Shown here: positions 9,991-58,380 of the stretch, one piece after another | How positions within the stretch are numbered: position 1 is the first letter of the stretch | Layout of the letters: every line of letters begins with the position of its first letter | DNA from: Rhypophila decipiens | Lineage: Eukaryota; Ascomycota; Sordariomycetes; Sordariales; Naviculisporaceae | Length of the DNA: 64,000 nucleotides | Assembly: GCA_033297075.1 (NCBI GenBank) | Contig: MU858102.1 | Coordinates: forward strand, 1 to 64,000 | Direction of reading: 5' to 3' | Made by a program: the position numbers and the translations under genes | The notes under the pieces: generated by a model | Database searches by the model: none | What the model was told of the DNA's origin: nothing | What the model saw: only the letters and a program-made list of their open reading frames with translations

Positions 9991-12621
9991 ATGGGGTCTG
10001 GCCGAGTATGCCCGCACGTCGAGGAGGGCAATCTCAAAACGCCCACACCTGTTGACTTGATCTATCGTGAGGACTGCACTCAGTGCTTCGATTCGATTGA
10101 CGAATCCGCTGGCCTCGACGTCTGCCTCAAATGTTTCAACGGAGGTTGCAATGGCATCTACAAGCATGCGCAAGCCCACTATACCTCCTCGGGACATCCT
10201 CTAGTGCTCAATATCCGACATGTCCGCAAGCAAGTGGTCAGAGACGAACCTCCTCCGAAGATGTTCAAGCTCCAGATCGACGCTGAGACCGACGCTGACC
10301 GCTACGACACCTTTCTAACTCTCAACTGCCGCGCATGTAACGAAACCGACCTAGACAAGTCCAACGCACTCGTCGAGCCTGTTATCAAGGAAATTATGAA
10401 GGCCGCAACCTGGGCCGAGAAAGCAGCAATCCCCCCGTGGAAACCTTCCGAGTGTGAGCATATCACGATGCTGATAAGCGCATATGAGCATGACGAGAAG
10501 AAGAAGAAGGAGGAGGAGGAAGAGAAGAAGAAGAACAAGGAAGCCTTCGAAATGAATCAGGCCGTTCGAACTGACAACGATGCCGAGGCTCCTGGTGACT
10601 CTGGTGTTCCGGACCAGGAGAGAATGGTTATCGATACTCCAAAAGAAAACAGTGCGCCCGAAAGAGCAGCTTTCCTACGCGTCAAGGAAGGGAAATTCTT
10701 GGAGTCAGCCAACCTTACCAACTGCTCCCAATGCGAAATGACAGAGAATCTGTGGCTTTGTCTTACCTGCGGGAATGTAGGATGTGGGCAAAGGAACGGC
10801 AATTCACACGGAAAGGCCCACGCACAAGGGGAGGAACACCATCTCAGTGTGAAGCTTGGCTCACTTGCCCCTGGTGAGACTCCTGATGTGTGGTGCTACG
10901 CCTGTGGAGGAATCGAGACAAGCACGGGTCTGCCATATGGAGAATCAGCAAAACACCCAAAGCTAATCCCATTTCTGGAGCACCATGGCTTAGATATGAC
11001 AGAACGAAAGAAGACTGAGAAGAGTCTTGAGGAGGAACAAATTGAAGCCAACCGAAACTGGAACTTCTCCATGAAAAACGAGGATGGCGAGGAAGCCACG
11101 CCATTGTTTGGACCCGGCCTGACCGGCCTCAACAACATGGGCAATACCTGCTACCTTGCCAGCATTCTGCAGTGCCTCTTCGACATCCCGGCCTTCCAGA
11201 AGAGGTTCAATCTTCCGGCTGCCCAAGTCCAGAAACCAGCAGAGGATCTCGAGACCCAGCTGCGAAAGATGGCAGACGGCCTCCTGTCTGGTCGTTATTC
11301 TAAGCCCGAACCCTCTGGTATCTATCAAAAGGGACTGACCCCAGCCATGTTCAAGCACCTCATTGGTCGCGACCATCCAGAGTTCTCGACAGCCGGGCAA
11401 CAAGACGCCTATGAGTTGATGCAGCACCTGCTCGAAAAGATTGCCACCCTGCAACACCCCTCCGAATTGGGCAATCCAGCGCAGGTCTTCCGCTTTGCGA
11501 TGGAGCAGCGGCTGCAGTGTCGTGGTTGCAACAAGGTTCGCTACACTACTGAGATCCACGAAAGTCTTCTCGTCAATGTGCCTGTTGAGAGAATTCCCTC
11601 CGAGGACCCGAAGAAGCAGAATTACAAACCGGTGTCCTTGAAACAATGCCTTGACATTCTTACAGCACCCGAGGAAGTTCAGTTGACATGCTCGTCCTGT
11701 GGTTCAGACGGCTTTACAAAACGCCAACAATTCAAGACCTTCCCTGAGGTCCTGGTGGTTGTTGCTCGCAAGATCATTCAGGCAGGACCTACCGAATTTG
11801 TCAAGGTAGACGTACCTGTCATCATTGATGGAGATGTGCTTGCTCTCGACGAGTACCTCTCCGCTGGGCAGCAACCGGGCGAGGACCCTTTGCTTGATGC
11901 TCCTGCTCCCAAGGCCCCTGCTCCCAAGGCCCCTGCTTCCAAGGCTCCTACCTTTGAGCCCAATGCTGCTGCTCTCAATGACTTGCTTGGCATGGGCTTT
12001 GTCGAGGGGCGCGCTGTCAAGGGTCTGTTTCATACTGGCAACTCGGACTCCGTTTCGGCCATGAACTGGGTGCTGGACCATGCGGAGGACCCGGACATTG
12101 ATGATCCTCTGGTTCTCTCACCAGCCAGCAATGAAGACGACGTCGTGAAGGAAGAAGACGTCCAGATGTTGCAGGGTACGGGGATGGGGTGGGATGAGAT
12201 GCTTATACGCAAGGCCATCTTTAAGCACGGCGGTGATACCGAAGCGGCCGCCAATGGCCTTTTTGAGGGCAATACGTACGACGATGTCAAATTGCCTGCA
12301 CCCAAGACCATCAAGACGAGTCCCAACGGCGAAAACCTTCCTGGCAGCTCTGAACGCCCTGCCAAATTCGAACTCCAGTCGATTGCGTGCCACAAGGGCA
12401 GCAGTATCCATGTTGGGTAGGTTGATCTTCACTGTTTCTTTCTGTCCTCTCTTGTTCGCGTGCTAACTTGAAGAATGTGTAGTCACTATGTCGCTTTTAT
12501 CCGAAAGGAGATTGACGGCAAGACGCAGTGGGTGCTTTTCAACGATGAAAAGGTTGCCTTGGCTGTTGATGCCGATGAGATGAAGAAGTCCGCCTACGTC
12601 TACTTCTTTAAGCGCGTCTAG
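9991..12621 (+). CDS. UBP14: ubiquitin C-terminal hydrolase Ubp14 (USP5/isopeptidase T type)
   Basis: Cysteine protease that disassembles unanchored polyubiquitin chains. Two exons (9991-12416 and 12483-12621) encode 854 residues, close to yeast Ubp14 and human USP5. Order: N-terminal Cys/His zinc-finger variant (about 1-100, CTQCFDSIDES...CLKCFNGGC), a KKKEEEEEKKK charged stretch, zf-UBP (about 240-310, CSQCEMTENLWLCLTCG), USP domain with nucleophile in NNMGNTCYLASILQCL (Cys387), two UBA domains (LNDLLGMGF near 660 and MGWDEMLIRKAIFKHGGD near 730), and the catalytic His in GHYVAF (His810). That His lies in the small second exon, so an annotation stopping at the in-frame TAG at 12418 would miss the active site. 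An APKAPAPKAPASKAP linker precedes the first UBA. The chosen ATG has the context cacaATGG; an in-frame ATG at 9889 lies 102 bases upstream in likely leader. Confidence 0.95.
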
Positions 12622-14364
12622 AGGTATGTAATAGGGACGGATTATGTTTCGCGGAAGTTATGCTTTTATGGCGAATGGACGACTGTAAATGTTACCTGAA
12701 TACTGTTTGCAGCGAGAGGAAAAAGAACAGGACAGGGATACATGACTCGCTTAAGTTAACAGAATAAGGTCGAGCTTTCAAGGTTCAAAACCGAGATTAA
12801 GAAAAGAAACAACAAAGAGAAACGAAATAATGAGATAGACGTCCCCAATAACTAATAGGCTACACAAACCTTTCACGGTCTTCTATCGCGGGCTTCGGGA
12901 TGGTGTTTATGTCTTGAGAGCTTAGTCTTCCGACTCACGAACAGCCGGATTGGTTGAGATCCCTAGTCTAACTGATGGCTGGAATCCAGTGTTAAGGAAC
13001 GGATATTTGCTATTACTCATGATAAGCTCCATGTCAGCCACCGAGACGGCCGTTCGAAAATTGTGATGGGATTGTCGACGGTGTCGGCCTTGACTGAGCC
13101 TCAGTTCAGGAACGATCCGAAGGTTGCGAACGTGTATGGATATAAAGAACAATAGTTCCATTACGATCATGCCCGTACAGTACATATCAAATGCTTGTCG
13201 GTCGATCCGTGTTTGACGTCGGGTGTCTTAGTCGAGTACTGTATCCGTACGGTACACACTTCCATGCATAACTTCACATCGCAAAGGCAGAACTTGGTCA
13301 TTAGGCGAGCCTAATCACGGCCCCTGCAGGTTGGAGTGGTGGTTGTCACCAAGCCAATGAAATGTTTACGGGGTACCTGCCAAATGAGCAATCTGAATGA
13401 TCTCATCGCCTTCTGTTCGAGAAGAAAGAGGGGACCTTGAATTTATACATAATACAGCGACACTGCGTCATACCACTGGTCTTTGGGTGTGTCCGTACGC
13501 ATGTTCGCGATTTTGGAGTCGATGTGTCACCCGGGCTTGTTCCTGCCAAATTGATCACAGACATGATGCTGGATCACCTGGTTGTCTTGTTGTCAATAAT
13601 TCCTTTTCTCGTGCAAGATATTTCCTTTTTGCACAGCCACGCTCATACGTATGCTTTGTTTCCTTCCGAGGTTTTTACGAGGGACCTGGCGGTAAGCTCG
13701 CTGTAACCCGCCCGCCTGTCCCCACACTTTGGTAAGAAAACACGAGCTCACTGTGTCGCTGACAGTGGGACGCATGGGTCTTGGCGATCACATCAATTCG
13801 TGGTGTGCTGGCATCCCTGCTGGGCCGCCGTGGCCGCCCAGCCCGCTACGAAGGTGCCCCTCGCACTGGAATCTGCTCCTTTTTTGATCCATTTCCATCT
13901 GTTCCTCCAGGTCTCCACGTCAGGTCGGTTCAATATCTCCTGACCCCGTCCCCGTCAAGAACCAACAACCCTCACTCCAGGTACCCTGACTCCAGGTATC
14001 TCGCGGTCAATTTTTGTCCTCGTCGCCGATGGCTTTTGTGTAGTCACGCAATCGATTCCAGTCGACTTACGCTCGCTTTTTTTAGTCGTTTCCTTTCGCT
14101 TTGCTTCATTTGCGCCTCACAGGCATCCAATTCACGATCGAGTTCCCGGTTTGGACAACCTCACACGCGGCTTTGCAACATCGACGGGAATTTGAAGAGC
14201 CGAGCGTCATCGAAGAACTGAAGGGAATATTTGGACTCAAGAAGAATGCGCCGGTTTTGATCGATATTTCTGGATTGAAGCGCCAGAGACGGCAGTCATA
14301 GTTTCATCGCTCATCGGAGCACGATACAATACAGAGCGATTATCGAACAAAAAGGGCCGTCGAA
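12622..14364. other. intergenic between UBP14 and FLC-like gene
   Basis: About 1.7 kb. Open frames at 12922-13185 (-), 13397-13735 (+) and 13781-14221 (+) have no recognisable motifs. The last is Ser/Arg/Pro-rich and pyrimidine-rich on the plus strand, as expected for a promoter or 5' leader of the gene at 14365. No RNA gene or repeat was seen. Confidence 0.5.
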
Positions 14365-16854
14365 ATGTATCTCCGACGATCGTTCGCCCTCTTTTTGTCG
14401 CTCGCGACATTCCTCCTCCCCGCGACCGCTGAAGATGCTCTCAAATCGAGTTCGTTGGCAGCCTGCCAAGAGAATTCTGGCTTCACGGCCAGTCTCTTCG
14501 ACATCACTTACACGCCAAAGGACGGCAAGCTTTATATCAACATGATCGCTACGTCGTCGATTGAGGGAAAGGTGCTTTTTGACGTCGCTATAAGCGCATA
14601 CGGATACCAAATTACGCGCATCACGCTGGATCCCTGCGAAGGCAACATCGCAGGAGCTGCTGGCTTGTGCCCAATGACTTCTGGAAAGATGGGCTATCCC
14701 ATGATTCTGGATCTTCCTCCCGGGGCCGCCGATAATATCCCAGGAATTGCATATACATTCCCAGACCTGGACGCTATGGTTAGAGTCTTTGTGAACATGA
14801 CCGACGGGCCTCAAGCAGGTACAAGAGTCGCCTGCGTGGAGGCAAATATCTCCAACGGAAAGACTGGTATGTTGCACTTGTTTTTATCTTGATGTCATTC
14901 CAGTTCGTGGTCCCTGTACTCACACACATTTTCAGTTGATCTTCTTGGTGTAAAATGGGCAACAGCAGCAGTTGCGGGCTTAGCCCTGATGGCATCTGCC
15001 ATCATCTCGGGACTTGGCTATACCAACGCAGCCTCTCACGTCGCAGCCAATGCTCTCTCGCTGTTCGGATACTTCCAGGCTCAGGCCATGATTGGTCTTT
15101 GTGCGGTACCTCTGCCGCCAGCTGTGGCATCATGGACTCAGAACTTCCAGTGGAGTATGGGCATCATCAAGATCGGCTTTGTTCAGGACATCCTGACATG
15201 GTACCAACGGTCGACGGGCGGCACGCCATCCGTTCTATTCAACAATCTTCACGCTGTGTCTGTCCAGGTCGAAAAGAGGTCTCTGCCCGTGATGGAATAC
15301 GGACTTGGTTTGGTTAGCCGCGCGGCGTCGAAAGTGGTTGACTCTCGTGTCGTCCGACGTGCCGCTTCCGCCTTGACGAAGCGCGCGAACATCCAGACAG
15401 AGTATGGCAGTTACCTCGTAAAGGGCATTCAGAGAGTTGCTTTTAGGGCAACCATCGAGTCTACGAATCTCTTCATGACCGGACTGACCTTCTTTTACGT
15501 ATTCGCTGTTATCGCCTCGATACTGGTTGTTCTGTGCAAGCTGGGAGTTGAGGTTGCCGCCAGGTTGAGATGGATCAACTCAGAGACGTTTTCGGATTTC
15601 CGTAACGGGTGGCTATCGGTTTTGAAGGGTATGCTTCACACCACACATGCATTGCTTTTCTCCAGTCTCCCAATCGCTGACCAAACCTTCATAGGCATCC
15701 TCTTCAGATTGACCCTCATTGGCTTCCCTCAAATCACCATTCTCTGCATGTGGGAATTCACACAGGTCGACTCACCTGCCGAGGTGGTGCTTGCCGCCTT
15801 CTTCTTCTTTGGGATGGCTGGCGTTCTTGGATGGGCCGCCTTCAAAGTGATTCGCATGGCGCGCCGATCAGTCCACATGCACCGCAATCCCGCCTACATT
15901 CTGTTCTCCGACCCTCAGGCGTTGAACAAGTGGGGATTCTTATATGTGCAATTCCGAGCATCGGCATACTACTTCATCGTCCCGATCCTCTGCTATATCG
16001 TCGTCAAGGGCATGTTCATCGCCCTGGTGCAAGGAAACGGAACGGTACAAGCAGTCGCTCTTATCGTGATTGAAGCCGCCGCGCTCATCACAGCTAGCGT
16101 CTGCCGCCCGTGGATGGACAAGAGCACCAACTCGTTCAACATTGCCATCTACGCCATGAACTTTATCAACGCCATCTTTCTTTTTGTTTTCACTGATGTC
16201 TTTAGCATGCCAGGGTTGGTAATTGGCGTGGTCGGTGTCGTCTTCTGGATTGCGAACGCGGCCTTCTCCCTGATTCTCCTGATCATGCTCATTGTTACGA
16301 CCAGCATTATCCTTTTCCACAACAACCCCGACACCCGGTACCAATACATGAACGACGACCGCACTTCATTTATGAAATCTCAGACTCATCTGCAAAACAC
16401 GAGCGACCTGGATGCGTTGGGGGCGACGGCACGAGCCAGTGGCAAGTTTTTCAAGCCGGCGTTGGATTTGGACGAAGATAACGACTCGACCATGTCCAAC
16501 CCTGCTAATCTGCACAACCGGCCATCACCGCCTAATTCCACAAGGCACTCGAGAATGATGCCCTCGGACCATCAAGCGTCTCAGTACCCGGCCGACCCCT
16601 CCAACGAAGACCCGTACTTGCGGGATCGTGCTAGCGGCAGTTTCCGCGCGCCGAGTCCGTTCACTGGATCAAACTCCAACCTTTCAAGGCACTCGCACCA
16701 TAGCATCAACAACATGGTGGGCCATAAATCACCACCGAATAATACAGGGTAGGGAATCCTTGAATTGTGTCTAAACATTCGACGCTGAAATGCTGACAAT
16801 GTGGCAACCAGGACTGGAGGTAGTCCCTGGCAAAGGGGAGCTGGCTATGAATAA
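14365..16854 (+). CDS. FLC/TRP-like membrane protein (ML-like domain plus TRP-like channel)
   Basis: Member of the fungal family that includes yeast Flc1-3 and fission yeast Pkd2, implicated in FAD uptake into the ER, calcium handling and wall integrity. Four exons: 14365-14866, 14936-15628, 15695-16748 and 16812-16854, giving 763 residues. A signal peptide (about 1-22) is followed by the lumenal ML-like domain with spaced Cys (LAACQEN, LDPCEGN, GLCPMT, VACVEAN), then about nine hydrophobic segments from WATAAVAGLALMA onward, including LFRLTLIGFPQ and the late run AFSLILLIMLIVTTSIILF. The last ~120 residues are a Ser/Asn/Pro-rich cytosolic tail. The 66-nt second intron keeps the frame open (15629-15694), so retention would add 22 residues. 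The final exon adds 14 residues after an apparent stop at 16750. Confidence 0.88.
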
Positions 16855-20444: not shown

Positions 20445-23400
20445 TTATCCACCCCGAAACTTGAATTCGAATATCAAACCAGCAGGGCCGTAGAAGCGCC
20501 TGAACGCCCCTTTAGGATCCGGTAGATCTACCAGAGGTGCTGTTGACCCTGTTTCCTTGCACATTTTAGCCAACTCAATAGGGTCCTTCTCGCCCTCAAA
20601 GACTTTCGCGCCACTAGCAAGCAGAATTTCCACCATTTCCTCATCCCCCCTCTGCGCTGCATACCAGAGAGCTCTCCTTCCCAGTCTGTCGGTAACATCA
20701 AGGTCAGCCCCGGCAGAGATCAATAACCGAGCCTCTTCTTTCAATCCCATGCCTGCAAGATCAATGAGGGGAGTTCTACCTGCAATGTCCCTCTCGTTGA
20801 CATCAGCACCATGCGCTAGGAGAAGATCAACCCCGGCCTGAACTCGACTGAATTCCCTCTGAAAGCCTCTTGTATTCAATAGAGGATGGCAGTAGAGTGC
20901 GTAGTTCAGAGGCCGCCAGCCACAGATGTCCCGTGCGTTGATATCGGCGCCCGCGTCCAGCAGCAGCTTGAGTACTTCTGGAGACGGGCCAAATTCGGCA
21001 GCGCGATGTAAAACCGTTCTTCCCTGTTCATCGCTCCGGGAACACGAAGCCCCGCGCGACAAAAACAACTTGAGAAGATCTATGCTCTCCAAGGCACGCA
21101 GTATTGGAGGCGTGCCGCTAGTCCAGCCGTCGACAACTCCCCTATCCGGGTGTGCGCCAGCATCCATCAGCATCTCGACCACTGCAAACCTTTTCCGTTT
21201 GTCACGATTTTTCCGGTCCCACATGGCCAAGGATAATGCCGTCCGGCCCTCGGCGCTCCTCTTGTTAACATAATCATTTTTCGACAAAGGCAATCTTGTG
21301 ATTGCCTTTAAGATTTGACGCACTGCCTCCTCATGAAGGTACCCGCACGCATACATGAGGGCTGTGTCTCCCGAGCGCGGGTTTACGCTTGCCAGTGCGA
21401 GATATGCCGCGCCCGTGAGTAAAGCGCAGATAACTTCTTCATGGTTATACCTCACAGCGATGGAGAGGGGATCCAGTCCATCCGAGTCTTTGAGATGGCA
21501 TTTGGCTCCGTGTTCGATCAAGAGCCTGACAATCTCGCCATATCCACAACAGCTCGCCCACCAGACGGGGGAGCGCCCTTCTCTATCTCTAGCTTGGATA
21601 TCCGCGCCTTTTGATATTAGACTCCGGGCGATATCCTCACGGCCAAACTTCGCCGCCCAGATCAGCAGGGTCTGATCGTCACTGGTCCTTCTGGCGTCCG
21701 GTTTCCCCTCCCAGCAGCCATCCACGAAGTACTCAACGGCTCCACACAGGCCGAAATATGTCATCAAGTGAAGACCTGTCACTGCTGTGAGTATATTAGT
21801 CCGAGGAGACTCCAATTCGCCGAATAAGGTCTGTCTGCCAACCCCCTCTTCCACTCCCCCAGGCATGTCATTCCAAGTTTTGCGCCTCTGTGGCGCTTTC
21901 AGAACAACCTGCGCAGCAGCTAATATAACCTTCGGATCGGACAGTTGAAACCTGTTTAAAACTTCCTTACATGCTGGCCAGTTTTCACGAGCATGGTGGC
22001 CCCAGTACCCAGCGGCGTACGAATAGAGCGGGTAGCGCACCATGCGCAGATCAAATTCTGGCCAGGACGCGCATATGCCTTGTTCGAATACAGGCATCGA
22101 AATATACCGGAGGCAAACGGCTGCCATGTCGTCGTCAGCACTTGGGAACCACATCTTCCTTTCCCGGTCGAAATATTCCTGTGTTGTGTAGTGGACCAAA
22201 CGGACGATACCACTTCGCTTGTTGACTGTTACCAGGCCGGCACAGTAGCTTACTAGGTCATCGATGTCTGTGATTTTGTCCTCGTCGACTGAGTCTTCCC
22301 CCTCTTCGACCGCAAGTGCATGCTGGAGCTCAACAGTCCTCAGCGGTCTGGTTGCGCAGGTGATCCACGCAAGCGCCTTGAATGCCAATTCAGCTGGGCC
22401 AGCTCTCTGGCGTTTTATACGTCCCATGGCCTCCTCATACGCAATTTCATACGCGTTTGAGCCGCTCTGGAGCCTTGACAGAGCTTGAAGCACGGATTTC
22501 TTGTCCGTGTGGTTGCATATTGACTGAAAATGAAGTTGTGCGAGAAGAAACCTATGGCACCAATCAATTAGCCCCAACTGCCCTGACATGAGGACAGGAG
22601 AAGAAACCTACATTCCCTGAACCGCAGCCACAATCTTGGTCACTATCTGCCCTTGCAGCTCTTTGTCACGTCGGGCGAAAGGCAGAAGATCCTGGCTCTG
22701 GCCTTCCAAGTACTTCCTCACATCTGCCTCGCTGGCGCGGACCTCGACCACTGGCGTTGTTCTTCCCTCCTTCCTGTCGTTGAACTCGGACATGATCTCG
22801 GGTATATACCTGGACGTTGCAAGTAGGTTGACAGTCCGCCTCTTTTTCTGAAGCCCAAACATCTCGGAGAGAATACTCAGCAAAGTAGAGCCCTGTCTAC
22901 ATTCGTCCAAGGCGTCAAAGAAAATGAAAACCTGTGAAAATGACTGGGCCACTTTATCCAAGTTGTCCACTAGCTCGCCCCGGGTCAACCGTCTGTCACT
23001 GTTTTTGGTATATTCTTTATAGAGCTCCTGGATCTCTGCCGGCAAAGGATGTCTGTAAGCGCAGAGTTGTCTCAGCAGGCTGGCGAGAACATCCATCAGC
23101 CCTTGTGATCCTTCTTTCTTGTAACTGAAGAATATATACGCGATTCCCACATTCTCTGTCGTCTTTCTGAACCTGGCCTCGAGGTGGTCGATTGCAATGG
23201 CAGTCAACATCGTCTTGCCCGAGCCTGGGATTCCCGGGCAGAATAGTGTTTCCCCCGGGGAACGCAGCCAAGTCTGATACTCGGCCGAGTTGAGGAACCA
23301 TTCCCCTGTCCCTTCCTGACGCCGGTAGATGATGTCCTGGTGCGTGGAGGTAAAGTCGACGGGCGAAATCCAGACCAAGATTGTTTTGCGTGCCTCGGAA

Positions 23401-24462
23401 TCTTTCCACGCTTTTACGCCCTCGCTGATGGATATCATGTTTTGGCTGTCGGTGTACTGTTGGAGTTGAATCTGGTCCAGGTTTCGGTCGATCTTTGTCT
23501 GGCTGATGTGCAACTTATCGACACCCTGACCGATGGCACTGATGCTCTGGCTGTCGCCTTGCTGTCGAACGCTCATCTGGTCCAGACTCTGGCTGATCTG
23601 CACTTGGCCGACGTTCAACTGCTGAACACCGGTGCTGACGGATGTGATGTTCTGGCTATCGTTTTTCCCTTGTTGGCTGATCTGGCTCAGGCTCTGGCTA
23701 ACCTGACTTTGGTCCACATGCAGCCTGTCGACGCTCTGACTGATCAATTTCATGGTGGACCTGAAAATCAGCGGTAGATGAAGAAGTCAGTCTTTGTCCT
23801 AACCAACGAATGAAAGCCGATCCACACCGTGACACACGCTAAAGAGGACGAAAAGGAACCATGACTAACCTAGCGTTATTCAACTGCAGCGTATTAAACG
23901 AGTGGAGATGCGTCAAAAGTTGATCGCTGACCTTTCTGATCTCGTCGGGGTCGAACCGAAATCGCTGCCAACCCCTTCTCGTCGGCCGCCCAACTATCCT
24001 CGTGAATATGTTGGACCCGCTACTGGCCGACCCTGGAGTTGAGCCACCACCTGATGACCCGAGATCACCATGCTTGTCTAGTTCTCTCTCTAGCCGAACC
24101 AACACGTCATGGCACGATTTGCCGAGCTCTTGGAGGCGCGAGCTGTTTCCTGGTGCAGTGGAAACCGGGGCTGTGGCAGTTGTAGCCTCCTGGATAGCGA
24201 TACCCAAAGTCTTGACCCTACAGTTATTACGGTATGATATCAGTATTCATTTCATCGAGCTTTGTTTGGTTTCTGCAGTCTTTCTTCGCAGCCAGTTTGC
24301 TCTTGCCTGACCACCACAACAAGTCCAACCACGGGATATCGGGACAACATACTCATCAGCAAGACGCCGATACTCCTCTGGCGCGTCCTTGATCTTCTTG
24401 CTGACACTGTGAATGATCTTGGCGGCCGCAAAGAAATCACCAACTGAGTATCCAAAGCTCAT
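20445..24462 (-). CDS. NACHT-ankyrin STAND (NLR-like) protein
   Basis: Four exons on the minus strand: 24462-24353, 24217-23870, 23760-22612 and 22551-20445, 1237 residues. The N-terminus (MSFGYSVGDFFAAAKIIHSV) matches the short N-terminal domain common on fungal STAND proteins. Residues ~156-265 contain a 35-residue repeat (DSQ starts spaced exactly 35 apart, three times) with a LxVxQxQISQSLDQ heptad-like core, probably a coiled coil. The NACHT NTPase follows, with Walker A GIPGSGKTM near 330 and Walker B FIFFDALDEC near 432. Then comes a winged-helix/linker region and about ten ankyrin repeats (for example GRTVLHRAAEFGPSPEVLKL and GADINARDICGWRPLNYAL). Such proteins act in heterokaryon incompatibility or non-self sensing; the ligand here is unknown. 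The exon 3/4 intron (60 nt) splits the conserved VQGMFLLAQLHFQS block. Confidence 0.9.
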
Positions 24463-32174: not shown

Positions 32175-33649
32175 ATGATCCGGACCATTGATCTGTCAGC
32201 GTTCGCATTCAAGGATCGCAACGACCCTGCCACCACCCAGGGCCAGTCTGACCGTCTCGCTGCGGCCCGATCCCTGGTGGATGCGTGCCACAGTCTTGGT
32301 TTTGTGAAAATCACCGGCCATGGCCTGAGCGACGGCGAGGTCGACGAGGCCTTTGGCTGGCTCAAACGGCTTTTCGACCTCCCCACCGAGGAGAAGATGA
32401 AGGCCCCCCACCCTCCTGGGCCCATGCCTCACCGCGGCTACTCGGGCATTGGCCGCGAAAAGGTCTACCATCTCGACGACGTCAAGAAGCTGGAGACCGA
32501 AACGGGTGGCAATGGCAACGTCTCGGACGAGCTGCGCAAGATATCCGACTTTAAAGAGAGCTACGAGATTGGCAGCGAGCACGATGACCAGCAGCAAAAC
32601 ATCTGGCTGCCCGACGACGTGCTCGATGGCTTCAGGACTTACTTCTCTGCGTTGTACGAGAGGCTCGACGAGGTGGCCGACATGATCCTCGACGCGATCG
32701 GTGTAGGCCTCGGTCTGGACGAGGAAGCCCACGCCGCACTGATGGCATTGCATTCGAACCGGCATTGCCAGCTACGCCTTTTGCACTATCCCGCCATCGA
32801 GAAGGACATGTCCGACTCTGTCTTTGCGAGGCTACCAGCTCACAACGACTGGGGGTAAGTACAGTGGGATTCCTTCATTTTATATCCCCTACACAAACTG
32901 CTACACTATCGGTCTCCTTTATTCCAGCCTTGATCCCTGTCTGTCAATAAGGGCCAGCCATTAACAATCCCATCCTTGTTCGAAACATTTTGCAGCACTT
33001 TCACGCTCCTGTTCCAAGATAGCAACGGCGGTCTCGAGCTCATGGACCCCAAAACCAAGGAATTCATCCATGCAACGCCCGAGAAAGGAGCTCTTGTCCT
33101 CAACATTGGCGACATGTTGCAACGTTTCACCAACGGTATGTTTGTCTTTTGCTTTTGCCTTCCTTCCCGTCCCCCTTTTCATTGCCTCAACCGCAACCAC
33201 GGCTCGATATGACTGCTCGCTGCATGTGCCCCTGCATGAAAAACGGGTTCCATTCTTCATTCACACCCACACCCAAACAACCCCCCACCCAAAGGAAACA
33301 TGAACCAGTCGGTCCTTTCGAACTTTCTAGTAGTCGTCAAATGAGGCAACAGCCCGCCCGTCCGGCAAACTTTTCCAGATTCTAATCTGATAACAAAACA
33401 GATTATTTCATCTCTGCCTTGCACCGCGTCTCTGTCCCAGGGCCCGATGTCATCCGCGACAAGGGTGTTCCCGCCCGGTACTCGATCCCATATTTTATTG
33501 GGCCCAAGCCGTCTCACACCATCGCCTCCCTCCCGCAGTTCGTCACGGCCGATTCACCCGCCAAGTATGAGCCCGTCAGGTTCGACGAGTATGGTGCGCT
33601 TATCAGCAAGTACCAGTATGCAGACGGGGAAAAGGAAAAGGAAAACTAA
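32175..33649 (+). CDS. 2OG-Fe(II) oxygenase (isopenicillin N synthase-like)
   Basis: Three exons (32175-32854, 32996-33135 and 33402-33649), 355 residues, the usual size of this superfamily. An N-terminal DIOX_N block (IDLSAFAF...ACHSLGFVKITGHGL) precedes the catalytic jelly roll. The complete triad is visible: His223 and Asp225 in LPAHNDWGTFTLLFQD, and His281 in DYFISALHRV. The 2OG-binding arginine is in PARYSIPYF (Arg299). The introns fall inside the catalytic region, one right after the HxD motif. Likely a small-molecule hydroxylase or desaturase. It lies 0.7 kb from the repeat-peptide precursor, tail to tail, so a tailoring role is possible but unproven. Confidence 0.88.
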
Positions 33650-34336: not shown

Positions 34337-35219
34337 CTACTTTCTCTCAGCCACAGACTCATACTCGGCCAGGATCTCCTTGTCTTCATCATTCAGGACC
34401 GGAGCCCAGAACCCGTTGGTAGCGACAGGAAAATGACCGTCAGAGGCGACCTCGTCGCTACACCCAGAAGTTAGTCGGCTGAGCTCAAGGGGATCCGACG
34501 ACGGAGCTGCTGCTTACTCGACACTAGCGGCACGCTTCTCCTTCTCAGCCACACTCTCATACTCTGCCAGGATCTCCTTGTCTTCATCATTCAGAACGGG
34601 TGCCCAGAACCCATTGGTAGCGACAGGAAAGTGGCCGTCAGAGGCAACATCGTCGCTACAGCCAGAAGTCAGTCGACTTGGCTCGAGGGACAACAATGGC
34701 AGCGCGTCTACTTACTCAACACCGGCAACACGCTTCTCCTTCTCCGCCAAGGCCTCATACTCGGCCAGGATTTCCTTGTCTTCGTCGTCGACAGGCGGTG
34801 TCCAGAATGAGTTGGTGGCCACAGCGAAGTGTCCGTCAGAAGCAACATCGTCGCTAGACGCAGGACTCAGTCAGCTTGGTTAAGCACAAGAGACGAGAAC
34901 GACGATGTCAATTCGACTTACTCAACACTGGCAGCGCGCCTCTTCTTCTCGGCAACGGACTCGTACTCGGCCAGGATCTCCTTGTCTTCGTCGTTTATAG
35001 GCGCTGACCAGAAGTTGTTGGTGGCGACAGCAAAGTGTCCGTCGGAAGCAACATCGTCACTACGCGCAGGAGTCAGTCGGCATCAGACTGGCAGGAGGAG
35101 AAAGTCCGGGGTGATCATGATGACGCTTCTACTTACTCGACATTGGCAACACGCTTGCTGACTGGAGCGGCGATGACGCCGAAAGCAAAAGCGAGCCCGA
35201 GGAGTGCGGAGGTCTTCAT
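34337..35219 (-). CDS. Kex2-processed repeat precursor (candidate RiPP precursor)
   Basis: Five exons on the minus strand: 35219-35137, 35059-34922, 34853-34716, 34655-34518 and 34457-34337; 205 residues. Exon 1 encodes a signal peptide (LLGLAFAFGVIA) and a first SKR site. Exons 2, 3 and 4 are each exactly 138 nt and exon 5 is 121 nt. Each encodes one repeat of DDDVASDGHFxVATN, then a variable block, then DEDKEILAEYE and AEK(E)KR or KKRR. The variable blocks are NFWSAPIN, SFWTPPVD, GFWAPVLN and GFWAPVLN. This is the layout of KEP proteins: signal peptide, near-identical repeats, and Kex2 dibasic sites that cut the units apart in the Golgi. A UstYa-type oxidase is divergent from it, as in dikaritin RiPP clusters. 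A repetitive pheromone precursor is the main alternative, but there is no Cys-bearing alpha-factor-like unit. The mature product is unknown. Confidence 0.85.
34458..35059 (-). repeat. tandem exon-plus-intron duplication inside the precursor gene
   Basis: The array is built of units that each contain a 138-nt exon and its following intron. Introns of 77, 68, 60 and 60 nt share GTAAG donors, a middle CCTTGAGC or CCTCGAGC block, CGACT(G/A)ACTTCTGG branch regions and GTAG or CTAG acceptors. The last two copies are the most alike in both exon and intron, so the array appears to have grown by whole-unit duplication rather than by exon shuffling alone. All introns are phase 2, so copies can be gained or lost without a frameshift. 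Confidence 0.8.
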
Positions 35220-36026
35220 CTTGAATGGCTGATGGAAAGGCGTGGGTAGAATGAGTTGTAAAAGATGTAGTTGGGGGCTTTGAGCTTTGAGTTCTTGGCT
35301 GGAGATGGTGTGTTGCTGGTGTTGAGAGATGGTCTATTTCTGGGAAACGAAGTGGAAGAAGAGGTGGATTAAATACTTGTAGAAGCTTGTGGCTGTAGAA
35401 GCTTCTGGCCAGAGGAGGCAGCGCCAGTTCGGGCCTCACACCGGTACCGGTGAGTGTGATGAGAGTCGTGACTTCCGAATCCGTGCCGTGGTCCCAATCC
35501 CATAAAGTTTAAAGCGCACATGACCAAAATCAGGATTCCACGGTCGGTTTGCAACGGGCGGAAGTCGCGCCTCCTCCCGCCGGGATCGAAGTGCCTGATG
35601 ACTGCCGCCTGAACCAATCGTCTTATGGGGTGTGGTCACTGTGCCGACCATAAACTACAGGATTTCATATAGATTATGCCTCGTTATGCCGATAGGGCCG
35701 CAGGGCGCTACCAGTAATCGACATTGTCTGGACCCGGTGAGGCGAAACCAGTCATCACTTCCTTCCAACTCAGCTTCGTGAATTCCTATAGTCCGACTCA
35801 ACGCCGGTCCGGTACTTTGGAAGTTTGCACCGCCCAACAACCAGCCGCGACTTGAAAGTTTTCCCGATCTCTTCAGACATTTCTTCCTTTCTTATCGCAA
35901 GTCCAGACCGGTCTTTGCCCCTCCCCCTCCACTCTCTTTCCTGACTCTCACTCCTGACCCTCCTCAGACCCCAACTACAACTACAACTTCTTCTTTCTCT
36001 TTATCTTCTCCCACCAGTAGTGGATT
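35220..36026. promoter_or_regulatory. divergent promoter of precursor and UstYa gene
   Basis: The only 5' region available to both the repeat precursor (-) and the UstYa gene (+), 807 bp long. It has CGG-rich elements suited to Zn2Cys6 regulators: a perfect palindrome at 35439-35452 and a related CCGGTCCGGTAC near 35803-35815. A pyrimidine-rich tract (35880-36010) leads into the UstYa start. Coordinate expression is inferred from the arrangement. Confidence 0.5.
35439..35452. promoter_or_regulatory. 14-bp perfect palindrome CACCGGTACCGGTG
   Basis: Perfect inverted repeat with two CGG half-sites facing across TA, flanked by TCACA/TGTGA. It lies about 220 bp upstream of the precursor start and 575 bp from the UstYa start. 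CGG-type palindromes are usual operators for fungal Zn2Cys6 activators. No regulator gene is seen in the window. Confidence 0.45.
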
Positions 36027-37121
36027 ATGGCACCTCACAGAGAGCAAGTCACAATGGACGCCAAAGAAATGACTGTTGAGGCAGAACCTCTCATGAATGA
36101 CTTTGAGTCCGGGACACACCATATTCTGTCGACACGGTCCACCGCGCAGCTCACCAAACTCAAAGTCCATTACCTCCTCAATGTTGTCCTCACGCTCATG
36201 GTCCTCTTTCTGACGGCCATCATCTTTGTCCGGGAGCATGGAGCAGCTCCTTTTTCTCAATGCAGTCCTGAGTGCAACAACTATTACTGTGAGTCCTCCA
36301 CTCCTCCATTCACTTCCGCTTGTCACACATCACAGACGGTTAACAGAAGCTAGCTCCCGCTCTCGAGGCAACATGGACCGGGTCACACGTCGTACGTCCG
36401 GTCGTCACAAAAAACACGCCAGTCTCGCCGTTTAACCACGGAACCATGGAGGACATGGACAGCAACTGGACGTCTCTCCTGCGCGGTAAGTGGGCCTGGA
36501 GATCTGGAAGCCATATCATTCAATGCTGACTCAGTTCTGTTTGCCAATCTCAACAGTCGGGTTCATGGGCCTCACGGATGAGGAGCTCAAGAAGGTCGGC
36601 GCTCCTACCAACTCTGTACGGCTACCTGCTGAAAGCGGGGGCGGCTACATGGCGTATCTGGCAAGCCATCACCATTTGCACTGTCTGGTAGGTTCAATAT
36701 GCCTTACCCGCCGACATTAGGGCAAACCAGTCTCTGACGCCACCCGTTTGATAGTATCTCCTCCACCAGAGCCTCTACCCGGATTGGTACGAGACCCGCA
36801 GCGAGGTTTGGAACATGTCGGCTCGGCTGAGACAGTCGCACTGGGGTACGGTTACACCACCGCCATATCTTGTGTCAAGACGACATTGCTAACCACACAT
36901 GCCGGTCAGATCACTGCGTCGACGAGCTGAGAGACTACGTCATGTGCCATGCGGACTCTACTGTGGTGACGTACGAGTGGATGGAGGGCGTAAAGAGCTC
37001 GTTACCGCAGCAGGGCAATGCCCGTGTTTGTGCGAATTGGGATGGCCATTTCCAGTGGCAGCTTGACCGTCAGGTTCCAGCTCCGAAAACGAAGATCATG
37101 AGGCCTGCTGAGATGGACTAA
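36027..37121 (+). CDS. UstYa/DUF3328 family oxidase
   Basis: Five exons: 36027-36288, 36354-36485, 36557-36687, 36755-36845 and 36910-37121; 275 residues. A cytosolic N-terminus is followed by one membrane helix (YLLNVVLTLMVLFLTAIIF, about 51-69), then a lumenal domain with the family start YYSPALEA. Both HxxHC motifs that define the copper-dependent UstYa family are intact: His170-Cys174 (HHHLHC) and His204-Cys208 (HWDHCVDELR). Family members oxidise and crosslink ribosomal peptides in the secretory pathway. The head-to-head position with a Kex2 repeat precursor makes that precursor the obvious substrate. Introns are 58-71 nt with normal borders; the acceptor of intron 1 (CTAG|CT) was chosen because it restores the SPA motif. 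Confidence 0.9.
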
Positions 37122-38750: not shown

Positions 38751-40028
38751 TCAGAGACACCCAAAAGTCTTGGCAACCGCAAACTCGTACACACTCTCAG
38801 GGCACAAATCCCGGACCATCTGCCCCAACAACGCCGACGTGCCCACTGTATAATACGGCATCAAGAACCGATCACTCATAGCATCGTGGACTGTCTTCGC
38901 AACCGCCTCGGCGTCTTGCGCTCCCCCGTCGGCCGCAACCATCACACTCTTGAACCACTGATCCAACATGGGCCTGTAAACCTTTTCCTCTGCCTCCCCA
39001 AGTGGCATCTCAGACTTGACCAGCCGTCCAAATGAGTCAACTCCCACTGGAACCTGCCCCGTTCCATTTTTCTCCCCGTCGCGATGTCCGTTCAGCCCAT
39101 CATAGTACCCATCCAAAGCATTCTTGATTTTACCTCCAATCCCACCAGACCTTGTAAATCCCGGCCGAATAGTGGTCATCCCGACACCAAAGGGCATCAG
39201 TTCCAGCCTCCACGACCGTGTCATGCCCTCAATAGCCGCCTTCAAAGCAGAATAAGGCGCCCACATGGGCGGGTTGAAGAAACCACCCACACTCCCAATA
39301 TTCACGAAGCGGCCCTTGTTCTTCTTGATAATCGGCATGAAAGCATGAATAACCGAGATGTAAGCGAAAAAGTCTAGTTCGAAGATTTTGCGCACGTCTG
39401 AGAGCGGCGTGGCTTCCATCGGCGAGATCATGCAGTACCCAGCGTTGTTGACCACCCCAACTAATCGCCTCTGCGGATCGGAGCCAATTCTGGAGCTGAT
39501 TTCTTCGACGCAGTGGGATATGGATTCGGGAGAAAGGACATCCATTACTAGCGTGTGAATCGCATTGGGCGGAAGGTGGGTTGCTGACTCGGAGGCGGAT
39601 ACGGCATCGCACACTTTGTGGACTTCATTGGCGTTTGGGACAGTCGCAAAGACGGTATAGCCTTTTGTAGCGAGGTATAAGGACGTCGCTAGACCGATGC
39701 CCTCGCTTGCACCGGTGACGACCACGCTTGGAGCATAGCCCTTGAGAGGAGATGGGGTGGTGTGCCGCTGCGGTTTAAGTCCGTTGAAGATGAAATAAAG
39801 GATGTAATTGCTCATGTAGTGGACGACGAAATCGAGCCATGCTAGGATGCGGTTGAGCATCGCTAGCAGGCTGGAGAACAAGGAGAGGAGTTTATTTCTT
39901 GCCGGCATCGTTGTCGATGTTGTCGGATCAACAGTTCGGAGAAGGAGCGCTTGAGAGCCTGTCTGTTGTCGTTTTGTTCCTGGTTCTCCTACCTTTGGAT
40001 CGCCACTCCTGTCCATGACGTCAACCAT
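38751..40028 (-). CDS. membrane-anchored short-chain dehydrogenase/reductase
   Basis: Single exon, 425 residues from the first ATG, or 385 from the second in-frame ATG at 39908 (MPARNKLLSLF). The latter is plausible because the first 40 residues are low-complexity. A hydrophobic N-terminal segment precedes a classical SDR Rossmann fold: TGASEGIG cofactor motif, NNAGY, a serine in NIGSVGG, and the catalytic YSALK. The segment IRPGFTRSGGIGGKIKNAL and the overall layout resemble NADPH-dependent 1-acyldihydroxyacetone-phosphate reductases and retinol-dehydrogenase-like SDRs, so lipid metabolism at ER or lipid droplets is the best guess. Substrate cannot be read from sequence. Confidence 0.8.
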   Translation of the reverse strand: MVDVMDRSGDPKVGEPGTKRQQTGSQALLLRTVDPTTSTTMPARNKLLSLFSSLLAMLNRILAWLDFVVHYMSNYILYFIFNGLKPQRHTTPSPLKGYAPSVVVTGASEGIGLATSLYLATKGYTVFATVPNANEVHKVCDAVSASESATHLPPNAIHTLVMDVLSPESISHCVEEISSRIGSDPQRRLVGVVNNAGYCMISPMEATPLSDVRKIFELDFFAYISVIHAFMPIIKKNKGRFVNIGSVGGFFNPPMWAPYSALKAAIEGMTRSWRLELMPFGVGMTTIRPGFTRSGGIGGKIKNALDGYYDGLNGHRDGEKNGTGQVPVGVDSFGRLVKSEMPLGEAEEKVYRPMLDQWFKSVMVAADGGAQDAEAVAKTVHDAMSDRFLMPYYTVGTSALLGQMVRDLCPESVYEFAVAKTFGCL

Positions 40029-40817
40029 TTCTGGCTGTTCCTCTCCAACGGCCGCATTTCCCCAGCGGACCTCGAGTAGGCACTGACCGAGTGAAAGGGA
40101 AATTCTTTACTTATTTCCGTATGAAAGATTATTCGAAAAGAATTGTTTGTCCCCATCTGAGGCCAGCAACACTTTTTTCTTGATACAACAAAAGAAGTAT
40201 GCCTATAACCGTAACTATCCACTGACGGTTCCGTCTGGCAACCCATCTCGGTCAATTCCTGCCATGCTATTCGTGCGATAAGTGCGCCAACAGTTGTTTA
40301 ATTCACAGGCAGGCTGTGTTCTACCGCCGGACATCCAATTGGCTTGGGGTGCAGCAGTATCTGCAGGTTGGTGCTGCCACTGTTTGCCTTATTTTCGACT
40401 TGCTTGACAGAACTCAGAATAGCGAACCGTCCCATGCAGGTGTCTTCACTCCGTCGAGCTCTGAGATTGGTGGCCATACTAACTCATCGTCTGTTATTGG
40501 CTCGACTTGCATCTCTCATGGTGGGATAAGCCCCTCCGGAATCTGCCCGTGAGGGAGCCCCGGGTGTCTGTGTATCTCCAACCCAAATCCAACGACCACC
40601 CAAGATAAGGCACCGAGTTGGAAGATGAATGCTCAAAATGAGACTAAAGACAGATGGTCATAGATCCGGTACTCCATCAAACTCTCATCTTGTTGATATA
40701 CCGCCATTATCTTATGAAACCACACTTCCAATTACCTCGCTATTGCTTCTGCGTATCTTTGATAACATCCTAGCATTTTATCACCACTGATCTAGCCCTT
40801 CTCCGTTCGCTACGATC
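40029..40817. other. divergent intergenic region
   Basis: About 0.8 kb between the SDR (-) and the STAND-like gene (+). Short motifless frames at 40316-40552 (+). No repeat or RNA gene seen. Confidence 0.5.
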
Positions 40818-50490: not shown

Positions 50491-52699
50491 ATGGTCGATC
50501 GCACCCACATCTTCGCCCGGCTCGATGCCCTCTTGCCGCCGAAATCCGACTACCAGAGCGCCGCCCTATGCGGCCTCGGCGGTTCCGGGTAAGCTGTTCC
50601 TACTCTCGCGGTAACGTGCTTGCTTGGACTAATAACTGTGAAGGAAAACCCAGGTAGCGCTTGAATACGCCTACAACCGATGCCGCGACCCCGCATGCTC
50701 TGTCTTTTGGGTGCACGCCGACAACGAGACGACCTTCGCCCAGGACTACAAGTCGATCGCAAGGAGGCTAGGACTCGCTAAGCTCGACGGCGAGAAACTT
50801 CTGACGGCTGTACGCGAGCGGATCGAGAGCGGGCCCCCATGGCTGCTCGTCCTCGACAACGCCGACGACTTGGCACTGTTTGGCGTCGGCCTGCCATCCC
50901 ACAACACATCATCTGGCCGGCCAGAGGAATTGATGAGCTTATACAACTACGTCCCCAGTAGTGGTACTGGGACGGTGCTCTGGACAAGCCGCGACGAGCG
51001 CATCGTTGGCACTCTGGTGGGCTCGCGACGCGGGATCCAGGTTGGCCCGATGAGTCCCGGCGAGGCGAAAATACTACTTGGGACGTCAAGAAACGAAGAG
51101 GTCGCCAGCAAGGAGGCCGTCGACGCTGAGAAACTACTCCAAGAGCTGCAGTGGCTTCCCCTTGCCATCTCGCAGGCTGGGGCCTACTTACGGAGAACGT
51201 CAACGCCGATCACAGAGTACTTGTCAAAGCTCGCAGAGGAACGATGGCAGACGCTCAAGGAGACAGAATTTGATCGGCACCGACGGCCCAATGTTCCCAA
51301 CAGCGTTTTGGAGACGTGGAACATTTCCATCGAACGCATCCGACGGGAAAATAAGATGGCATACAGAATCATGCACATTATTGCGTACATCAACAACCAG
51401 GACATCCCGTTCGAGATCATGACAGCAGCTGGTCTATTTGGCGACGAGGGCGGAGTGGGAGATGCTGGGCAGAATAAGGGTCGGGTGGTAAAAGCCGTTA
51501 CTCGGCTGAAGGAGTTTTCGTTCCTTGGATTTCTCAGGGGAGTGGACGACACGCGGAGCTACGAGATGCATAAGCTTGTGCAGGAGGCGACGCGGTACGG
51601 ACTTGGTGTAAGGAATCCAGAGAACGAAATACATTTCTCGGGTGCGGCACTCCAGATCATGGCGGAGCTGTTTCCCGAGCGCAAGCGAGAAGCATGGGCA
51701 GAGTGCGAGAGGTACATCGCACACGCGGTACAGGTGGGTGAGTGGGCAGAGGTTTGCAATCGGAAGGCTGAAGTGTCTGATCTTTTGACTCGGGTTTCAG
51801 ACTATTTGTACGACCGTGGTAGATGGAGGGAGAAGGAGCCGGTAGATCAGAGGGCGTACGAGCTGAGGCGGGCGGTGCTCGGGGAGAAGCATCTGGATAC
51901 GATTCGGAGTATGGCGGAGCTCGCAACAACATACCATCAGCAGGGTCGGTATGCTGAGGCCGAGTCGATATACATCAAAGTGCTGGAGCTGCGGCGGGAG
52001 GTTCTCGGGGAGAAGCATCCGGATACGATTTGGAGTATGGCGGACCTCGCGGCGACATACCATCAGCAGGGTCGGTATGCTGAGGCCGAGTCGATATACA
52101 TCAAAGTGCTGGAGCTGCGGCGGGAGGTTCGCGGGGAGAAGCATCCGGATACGATTCGGAGTATGGCGGACCTCGCGGCGACATACCATCAGCAGGGTCG
52201 GTATGCTGAGGCCGAGCCGATGAAGATCAAAGTGCTCGAGCTGCTGCAGGAGGTTCTCGGGGAGAAGCATCCGGATACGATTCGGAGTATGGCGGACCTC
52301 GCAGCGACATACTATACACAGGGTCGGTATACTGAGGCCGAGTCGATATTCATCAAAGTGTTGGAACTGCGGCGGGAGGTTCTTGGGGAGAAGCATCCGG
52401 ATACGATTGGGAGTATGGCGGACCTCGCGGCGACATACCATCAGCAGGGTCGTTATGCTGAGGCCGAGCCGATATACATCAAAGTACTGGAGCTGCGGCG
52501 GGAGGTTCTCGGGGAGAAGCATCCTGATTCTCTCCACGCGATGCACGATCTCGCAATTACCTGGAACAGCCGAGGCCGCCGGGATGACGCTATTGGTCTC
52601 ATGAATAAATGCCTGCGGTTGAGACAAACGGCTTTGGGACCGGACCACCCATTCACGAAGCAATCAGTCCAATCTCTCGATAGCTGGGAGAATGGGTAG
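50491..52699 (+). CDS. NB-ARC-TPR STAND (NLR-like) protein; 5' exons unresolved
   Basis: Coding exons 50491-50588 and 50644-52699 give 717 residues from the ATG in NEDMVDRTHIF. The frame also continues upstream to an acceptor at 50427 (IPLPRNEDMV is family-like), so one or more 5' exons exist; candidates lie at 50188-50266 and near 50357-50386 but do not join cleanly. NB-ARC features: P-loop GGSGKTQVALEYAY (split by the 55-nt intron), Walker B LLVLDNADD, and a downstream helical ARC region. The C-terminal third has six 42-residue TPRs (LGEKHPDTIRSMADLAATYHQQGRYAEAE...), the first five nearly identical. Fungal NB-ARC-TPR proteins are non-self recognition candidates in which repeats evolve fast. 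A long antisense frame over the repeats is an artefact. Confidence 0.85.
51878..52633 (+). repeat. 126-bp TPR-coding tandem repeat, six copies
   Basis: Units start at 51878, 52004, 52130, 52256, 52382 and 52508, each exactly 126 bp. Copies 1-5 are nearly identical at DNA level; copy 6 has diverged. Differences between copies cluster at a few codons: the residue after DTI (R/W/R/R/G), HQQ/YTQ, SIY/PMK/SIF/PIY and REV/QEV. Near identity points to recent amplification or concerted evolution. Confidence 0.92.
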
Positions 52700-57597: not shown

Positions 57598-57883
57598 CTA
57601 CCACGGCTCATAAACATAACACAACGGCGAGCCCCCAACAGTATCCATCGCCGCTCCGATAGTAATATTTCGATTGAGCGGCTCAAACCCCATGTTATCC
57701 GTCAACTTGCTCGTAGCCGACGGAGGCGAGTTATACATGGTCCCCGTCCCAGCGATAGTCTGTCTCTTTTTCCAATCCAGATTCTGCCAGATGAAATGCA
57801 ACCGGTCGATATTCCCATGGTGCAGGTAGAAGCCCGGCTCCAGGCTCGAAAAGTAAAAGTCACTGCCCGGATCACCACTGATA
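57598..57883 (-). pseudogene. 3' fragment of a tyrosinase (copper monooxygenase)
   Basis: An open segment from an acceptor-like TTACAG (at 57884) to a TAG stop encodes about 94 residues of the tyrosinase central domain end: GDPGSDFYFSSLEPGFYLHHGNIDRLHFIWQ, containing the last copper-B histidine pair, then the usual GTGTMYN and TVGGSPLCYVYEPW tail. The copper-A site and the first copper-B ligands should lie upstream, but 57884-58380 on this strand holds nothing tyrosinase-like. The gene is therefore 5'-truncated and inactive. Tyrosinases modify peptides in some UstYa clusters. This relic lies between the two precursor/UstYa pairs, 3 kb from the second, which may or may not be coincidence. Confidence 0.75.
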
Positions 57884-58380
57884 CTGTAATAACGTTATAG
57901 ATAGATTACCCGTGCAGGTAAGACATCTCTAAACGAAGCTTCTGTTAACTAATCTTTTTGACCCAACCGGATAACAATTAACCCGTATTATATAGTCACG
58001 AATAGACTCGTGGCAAAGGAATGTGGCACAGCCTATCTCCCTCTTTAACTTGCTCTGTGGACTCCCGTCAGCCGTGGTGCTGATACGGTGGAAATCATTA
58101 GATCCTGCCTAGCCAACACTTGAATTAGGTAACTCGGCAAAAGGCTTCGGAAATATGGACGTCTTCTACTGCGAGGCAGCAAGCTATGGCTGTTGGCACT
58201 GGTGATTCTAACCGGCAACCCGTGCCTTCCCTGGGATAATAGCATTTTAACGACATTAGAATCTTGACACGTTGTGTATTTTCGATGAAGACTTTATGTC
58301 ATCTTAATCCAACACAAAGAGAGTAATCATAATAGAGTAATCATAATAATTACGGTAAGGTTGTTATACACAGTGGGCGC
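57884..58380. other. intergenic
   Basis: About 0.5 kb; no tyrosinase upstream exons found. A motifless frame (58045-58245, -) and an AT-rich TAATCATAATAGAGTAATCATAATAAT direct repeat near 58325. Confidence 0.5.

Follow-up and report, generated by a model that had tools for sequence, protein, structure and literature searches.

Architecture of the gene pair

Two genes are arranged head to head in the window, by which we mean the whole 64,000-nucleotide stretch of Rhypophila decipiens contig MU858102.1 that was analyzed. On the minus strand (34337..35219) lies a candidate precursor gene of 205 aa, modeled as five exons that join in frame (35219-35137, 35059-34922, 34853-34716, 34655-34518, and 34457-34337) and under purifying selection between its repeats. 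On the plus strand (36027..37121), a 275-aa UstYa/DUF3328 gene is encoded by exons 36027-36288, 36354-36485, 36557-36687, 36755-36845, and 36910-37121. The start codons of the two genes are separated by a shared divergent upstream region of 807 bp (35220..36026); a bacterial promoter scan of this region was uninformative for a fungus. The limits given for the pair in an earlier note on this DNA, 34337 and 37121, are exact, as the precursor stop codon ends at the former and the UstYa stop codon at the latter.

Exon 1 of the precursor gene (35137..35219, minus strand) encodes a signal-like leader, MKTSALLGLAFAFGVIAAPVSKRVANV, together with the first Kex2-type site. A hydrophobic stretch (LLGLAFAFGVI; best 11-residue Kyte-Doolittle mean, 2.59) is followed by AAPVSKR, with SKR as the leader end; the signal peptide proposed earlier is recognizable by hydrophobicity alone. 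The four minus-strand exons that follow each carry one repeat. Exon 2 (34922..35059, 138 nt) encodes repeat 1 with the block NFWSAPIN and the end KKRR, exon 3 (34716..34853, 138 nt) repeat 2 with SFWTPPVD and the end EKEKR, exon 4 (34518..34655, 138 nt) repeat 3 with GFWAPVLN and the end EKEKR, and exon 5 (34337..34457, 121 nt) repeat 4, again with GFWAPVLN, which ends AERK-stop without KR or RR. All four blocks first read from the DNA (FWSAPIN, FWTPPVD, and FWAPVLN twice) are present in the spliced precursor. Three of the units fit the earlier description in ending with KR or RR (KKRR, KEKR, and KEKR), but the fourth ends ERK-stop. With [KR]R sites at residues 22, 67, 114, and 160, the protein has the leader and the dibasic-separated repeats by which KEPs are recognized.

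The FW block itself is not bounded by dibasic sites, and the predicted peptides are long, two points against a RiPP reading; they are also acidic and hydrophilic (pI 4.05-4.33; GRAVY, -0.43 to -0.69). A single Tyr occurs in each repeat (residues 60, 106, 152, and 198), invariant and placed in the conserved flank (LAEYE) 15 residues past the Trp, while Tyr is found in none of the four FW blocks and Cys nowhere in the protein. Precursor matches to seven Pfam families (16.8-27.9 bits) were rejected as chance matches of a repetitive acidic protein; among the rejected candidates, DUF7440 passed its cut-off of 25 only when summed over the whole protein, no single stretch reaching it. After the Kex2-type site, every unit opens with a single VA or AA dipeptide that does not belong to a longer run. 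XA or XP dipeptides in this position are a Ste13-type signature and are cleaved off in pheromone maturation. The VA/AA starts fit such dipeptides, and this observation was counted against a RiPP reading of the locus.

The precursor introns (35060..35136, 77 bp; 34921-34854; 34715-34656; and 34517-34458, all on the minus strand) separate the repeats from one another, so that each repeat has its own exon. All four are GT-AG introns of 60-77 bp in phase 2 and interrupt each unit at the same place; the eight introns of the precursor and UstYa models together are likewise all GT-AG and 60-77 bp long. The precursor introns are mutually 61-73% identical, a score reached in only 0-3 of 500 shuffles per pair. 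This likeness suggests that exon and intron were probably duplicated as one unit. Among the papers listed for introns together with repeat precursors we recognized no report of a KEP with one repeat per exon, which is weak evidence, and neither PMC7329392 nor PMC6339444 uses the word "intron" in its main text.

The UstYa protein matches PF11807 with 137.6 bits (cut-off, 25) and carries both HxxHC motifs, HHLHC at residue 170 and HWDHC at residue 204, in line with the intact, divergent two-motif gene described in the earlier note. For CctR, which belongs to the same family, two such motifs are described as forming the copper site (PMC12435403, available portion). One strongly hydrophobic stretch (residues 50-68) would be a membrane helix, by hydrophobicity alone. 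A search of 5.8 billion proteins found 24 relatives, of which the top one is an R. decipiens protein with 98% identity; the others share 45-66% identity with the query across 47-97% of its length and include named proteins from Podospora didyma, Hypoxylon, Daldinia, Xylaria, and other fungi, some of them in Xylariales. The 16 of 24 relatives that were aligned all retain the H, H, and C residues of both motifs. Among the loci of its own genome that were compared, the protein has only distant paralogues, 22-35% identical over the aligned parts. An AlphaFold prediction for the R. decipiens UstYa protein, built with 15 relatives, was poor (mean pLDDT, 52.3) and too weak to support a fold search; a PDB search by sequence gave no matches at E 1.

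Selection on the repeats and relatives of the precursor

Between repeats, the flanks outside the block differ with a dS of 0.33-1.18 and a dN of only 0.03-0.06. Such silent divergence in combination with a near-constant protein indicates that selection acts on the precursor protein. In the 8-codon block, dN reaches 0.44-0.66 between units that differ in sequence and is 0 for units 3 versus 4, with Phe and Trp invariant throughout. Pooled over six non-independent pairs, pN and pS were 0.045 and 0.49 for the flanks versus 0.33 and 0.61 for the block. A permutation analysis of residue-change clustering gave a P value of 0.008 for an 8-residue window, whereas windows of 6, 7, and 10 residues gave 0.02-0.05; when variable columns were counted instead of residue types, P values were 0.04-0.15, and those of a Fisher test of block versus flank varied with the choice of pairs from 0.005 to 0.26. 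The block had been picked by eye in the first reading, for which the window scan corrects only in part. Collectively, these values are suggestive, though not strong, evidence that residue changes concentrate in the FW block, as they would for a core beside a recognition sequence. The earlier proposal that the variable block is the core agrees with the clustering of changes there, and we treat the block as a putative core.

A homologue search with the full-length precursor scored 7989 candidates among proteins of 63-359 aa and found none at E 0.1; with a two-repeat query, 246 candidates in the same length range gave none at E 10. No precursor homologue was found in this collection although it holds the 98% identical R. 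decipiens UstYa, which counts against the RiPP reading. In so far as no relative was found in these protein searches, the precursor sequence appears to be new, and to that extent its designation as undescribed holds. A search of the R. decipiens genome for paralogues returned only an orphan piece of a last repeat at C337:9523-9609. No further repeat was matched within 9.9 kb of C337, nor was UstYa at E below 1, and the piece was treated as a relic. With a protein query, a separate alpha-pheromone-like gene was found on C19 (246 aa; ten WC[N/H]KPGQPCF units); a stringent nucleotide-level pattern for alpha pheromones gave no matches in the genome.

Neighboring genes and other UstYa loci

At 0.7 kb past the 3' end of the precursor gene lies a 2-oxoglutarate/Fe(II) oxygenase gene on the plus strand (32175..33649; exons 32175-32854, 32996-33135, and 33402-33649; 355 aa), with DIOX_N and 2OG-FeII_Oxy matches above the cut-off. 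The model was chosen from five and has its third exon preceded by CAG; the gene is a possible accessory gene, tied to the pair by position alone. A short-chain dehydrogenase gene (38754-40106) lies two genes from the pair, the closest other DUF3328 gene is 25 kb away, and a ubiquitin hydrolase gene (9820-12417) and a TRP channel gene (14302-16749) are more than 17 kb away. Among the 28 ORFs and two gene models scanned with Pfam, out of 77 listed ORFs with a length of at least 100 aa, no methyltransferase, peptidase, or transporter was recognized beside the pair. Nor was a tyrosinase recognized near it, the only match listed for the contig being a piece at 57781-57885, 20.7 kb away, that covers model positions 180-213. 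Scanning the window for Rfam families and tRNA genes gave no matches.

The 45.7-Mb assembly contains 67 PF11807 matches, which merge into 49 groups, an approximate gene number. A scan for segments repeated ahead of dibasic sites, with the results judged by eye, covered 20 of the 38 regions around UstYa matches, containing 29 of the 49 groups by hand count, with two more groups in the window; for comparison, the only stretches without UstYa that were scanned were the remainder of the window and the part of C337 described above. Scan matches in the window and at L026, L034, L035, L037, and L038 were set aside because they were shadows in another frame, arrays lacking regularity, or repeats of a domain, as in the TPR gene at 52 kb.

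Across the 20 regions and the window, seven repeat precursors lie beside UstYa matches, including the present one. Each of the six further candidates has a UstYa match at a distance of roughly 1-4 kb, and three of them carry Trp. Those on C53 (AAGVVTWADVS, four units) and C59 (GPPPPSW and variants, eight units with EA spacers) contain Trp and no Tyr, and that on C167 (EPAYVWASANHK and variants, eleven units, with KR in only some) contains both. The candidates on C71 (PLYSLTALVGPP), C326 (EYNDNNAVEFKKRGELPTS, seven units), and C306 (YNGDDEGADKKKR, five units) contain Tyr. The exon-per-repeat layout is shared by the C326 candidate, whose units are likewise separated by introns; its intron phase differs and its sequence is unrelated. 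Proximity of a given repeat gene to any of the roughly 49 UstYa groups as close as in the present pair is expected by chance in about 0.4% of cases, a crude estimate for a pair that was itself picked for being adjacent.

A proposed dikaritin-like pathway and its alternatives

We are moderately confident that the pair constitutes a small dikaritin-like (ust-RiPS) RiPP pathway in which UstYa oxidizes the FW block. If expressed and spliced as modeled, the precursor would enter the secretory route, where Kex2 would cut after KR or RR to release acidic peptides of 44-46 aa. The flanks VDD[D/E]VASDGHF[A/P]VATN and DEDKEILAEYE[S/A][V/L]AE may then provide recognition for the membrane-anchored UstYa, a member of a binuclear-copper family, which would oxidize the FW-containing block by cyclization or hydroxylation; further proteolysis would trim the oxidized FW block. 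The dikaritin-like pairing noted at the outset is borne out in that a Kex2-type repeat precursor adjoins an intact UstYa gene. In the portion of PMC7329392 available, 1758 of 7878 KEPs have DUF3328 neighbors, with the count peaking at the adjacent gene. By the DUF3328-based definition, a dikaritin is a RiPP whose precursor is acted on by a DUF3328 protein (Montalban-Lopez 2021, as cited in the consulted part of PMC12048977), and the locus would qualify once UstYa action on the precursor is demonstrated. By the five-gene definition (tyrosinase, several DUF3328 genes, methyltransferase, peptidase, or transporter; Ding et al., as cited in the same part of PMC12048977), the locus falls short among the proteins scanned.

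The closest known systems share some of these features. Ustiloxin and phomopsin likewise combine Kex2-type repeats, conserved flanks, and UstYa-family enzymes; the partial source (PMC6514808) gives them 13-14 aa units in UstA, a Tyr-Ile ether, a tyrosinase, and a methyltransferase, which are not seen here. The epichloecyclins of Epichloe (gigA) likewise derive from an imperfect-repeat precursor with one DUF3328 gene and give several products (PMC7317419 and PMC6514808, in part); their 27-aa repeats, Tyr-based ring, and kexin gene in the cluster have no counterpart seen at the present pair. For asperipin-2a (aprA/aprY, Aspergillus flavus), a Kex2-repeat precursor and a single UstYa homologue are likewise described, within a four-gene cluster (excerpts of PMC6514808). 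The core of asperipin-2a, FYYTGY with Tyr ethers, differs from the present Phe-Trp block, which is free of Tyr and set in repeats of 44-46 aa, and neither an aprT-like transporter nor an aprR-like isoflavone reductase was recognized by the present pair. Victorin, from Cochliobolus victoriae, is chlorinated, and to our knowledge its core contains no Trp. It is described as a multi-core RiPP grouped with the dikaritins and cyclized through Phe, not Tyr (PMC9233826, in part). KEP type P-3 (Umemura 2020) likewise joins Trp and Pro in the repeat, with a DUF3328 neighbor in 4 of 7 cases; our comparison is by description only, and the genera listed in the available text differ from the present fungus (PMC7329392).

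These systems bear on the earlier suggestion that Phe and Trp in place of Tyr imply a crosslink unlike those of the tyrosine-ether dikaritins. In the portions consulted, the cyclizations described are on Tyr, with the Phe of victorin as the exception (PMC7329392, PMC6514808, and PMC9233826), and hydroxylation and halogenation, besides cyclization, are reactions in which DUF3328 enzymes are implicated (PMC12435403). Given that victorin is linked through Phe, that KEPs with W plus P occur beside DUF3328 genes, and that DUF3328 enzymes may hydroxylate or halogenate, a Trp/Phe block alone predicts no new crosslink; the flank Tyr in each repeat also weakens the suggestion. A specific version, in which the single UstYa would form a Trp/Phe-centered crosslink (for example, from the indole to a neighboring beta-carbon) to give three related cyclic products, with exon duplication or skipping varying the cores in frame, is in our judgment rather doubtful.

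The UstYa might instead act on the flank Tyr of LAEYE, leaving the FW block alone and yielding an ordinary tyrosine-linked dikaritin. One invariant Tyr is available in every repeat, and in ustiloxin, phomopsin, and asperipin the known site is a Tyr according to the available parts of PMC6514808 and PMC7329392. However, the sequence around this Tyr, 15 residues past the Trp, is charged and highly conserved, whereas the variation is in the FW block, and we regard action on it as improbable. A broader departure would be that the precursor releases unmodified secreted peptides of 44-46 aa (signal, surface, or effector peptides, on the model of Rep1 of Ustilago maydis or a peptide hormone), with the UstYa serving another pathway, perhaps with the 2-oxoglutarate oxygenase. 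The entire repeat is conserved, beyond any short core, as this would predict. But the precursor peptides are acidic and hydrophilic, unlike Rep1 surface peptides, comparable arrangements recur at six further UstYa loci in the genome, and the chance of the adjacency is about 0.4% under the crude model. In favor of unmodified release are the 6120 of 7878 KEPs that have no DUF3328 neighbor in the consulted text of PMC7329392, and the VA/AA starts as a possible Ste13 signature, which the available portion of PMC6339444 links to hormone candidates and does not find in the epichloecyclin precursors or in those of the cyclic toxic peptides. On balance, we consider unmodified release unlikely, though worth keeping in view.

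That the precursor is itself a mating pheromone precursor seems to us very improbable. Alpha-pheromone precursors are likewise built as a signal-like leader followed by Kex2-type repeats, and each unit here starts with VA or AA. Against this, alpha-pheromone precursors contain a Cys-bearing peptide of the WCxxxGQxC type, which the Cys-free precursor cannot provide, and the genome has its separate alpha-pheromone-like gene on C19. Furthermore, KEPs with a pheromone or mating-factor annotation are without DUF3328 neighbors, except for three, in the portion of PMC7329392 consulted.

The locus is thus a plausible RiPP pathway, and what makes it notable is the occurrence of Trp-bearing, UstYa-linked precursors in one genome together with the exon-per-repeat architecture. 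This layout might explain why such precursors have been missed in annotation. If the UstYa modifies the FW block, the pair would offer a compact two-gene test of the copper-oxidase family on Trp/Phe cores. With the Trp-bearing precursors on C53, C59, and C167, two of which lack Tyr in the repeat, the same question could be asked in parallel.

Other genes of the window

A second UstYa gene, recognized by a PF11807 match, lies at 62267-62790 of the window. Its first copper-site motif is intact (HELHC), while the second reads CIDHC and lacks the first His. ORFs of Ankyrin/NACHT type and with TPR repeats were found by domain matches at 20448-23786 and 50642-52696; judged from their domain make-up, these are predicted to be of the fungal NLR kind. 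At 57781-57885 of the minus strand, a tyrosinase-like piece (HHGNIDRLHFIWQ) adjoins a stretch that by eye resembles a multi-span membrane protein, and is possibly a partial or broken tyrosinase.

Repeat precursors elsewhere in the genome

A scan of 20 regions around UstYa matches in the same assembly (G000) revealed six further candidate repeat precursors close to UstYa genes, on contigs C53 (L019), C59 (L026), C167 (L034), C71 (L023), C326 (L024) and C306 (L038). Trp occurs within the repeat in three of the six, two of which lack Tyr. The C326 precursor (L024, about 2500-3320) is a second case of one repeat per exon, with seven units (EYNDNNAVEFKKRGELPTS) separated by introns and the seventh shortened by a stop. 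An alpha-pheromone-like precursor with ten WC[N/H]KPGQPCF units is encoded at G000:C19:94884-95555 (L039, 1444-2184). At G000:C3:505583-567809, eight UstYa match groups were counted by hand within about 62 kb; scanning the parts of this stretch in L027-L031 revealed no repeat array.

An orphan piece of the last repeat

A piece of the last repeat of the pair's precursor, STNGFWAPVLSDEDKEILAEYEAVAEKN followed by a stop, is present at G000:C337:9523-9609 (L013, L014). Searches near it matched no further repeats, and likewise no UstYa gene close by. The likeness extends past the stop into the 3' flank, and the piece appears to be a relic of that repeat.
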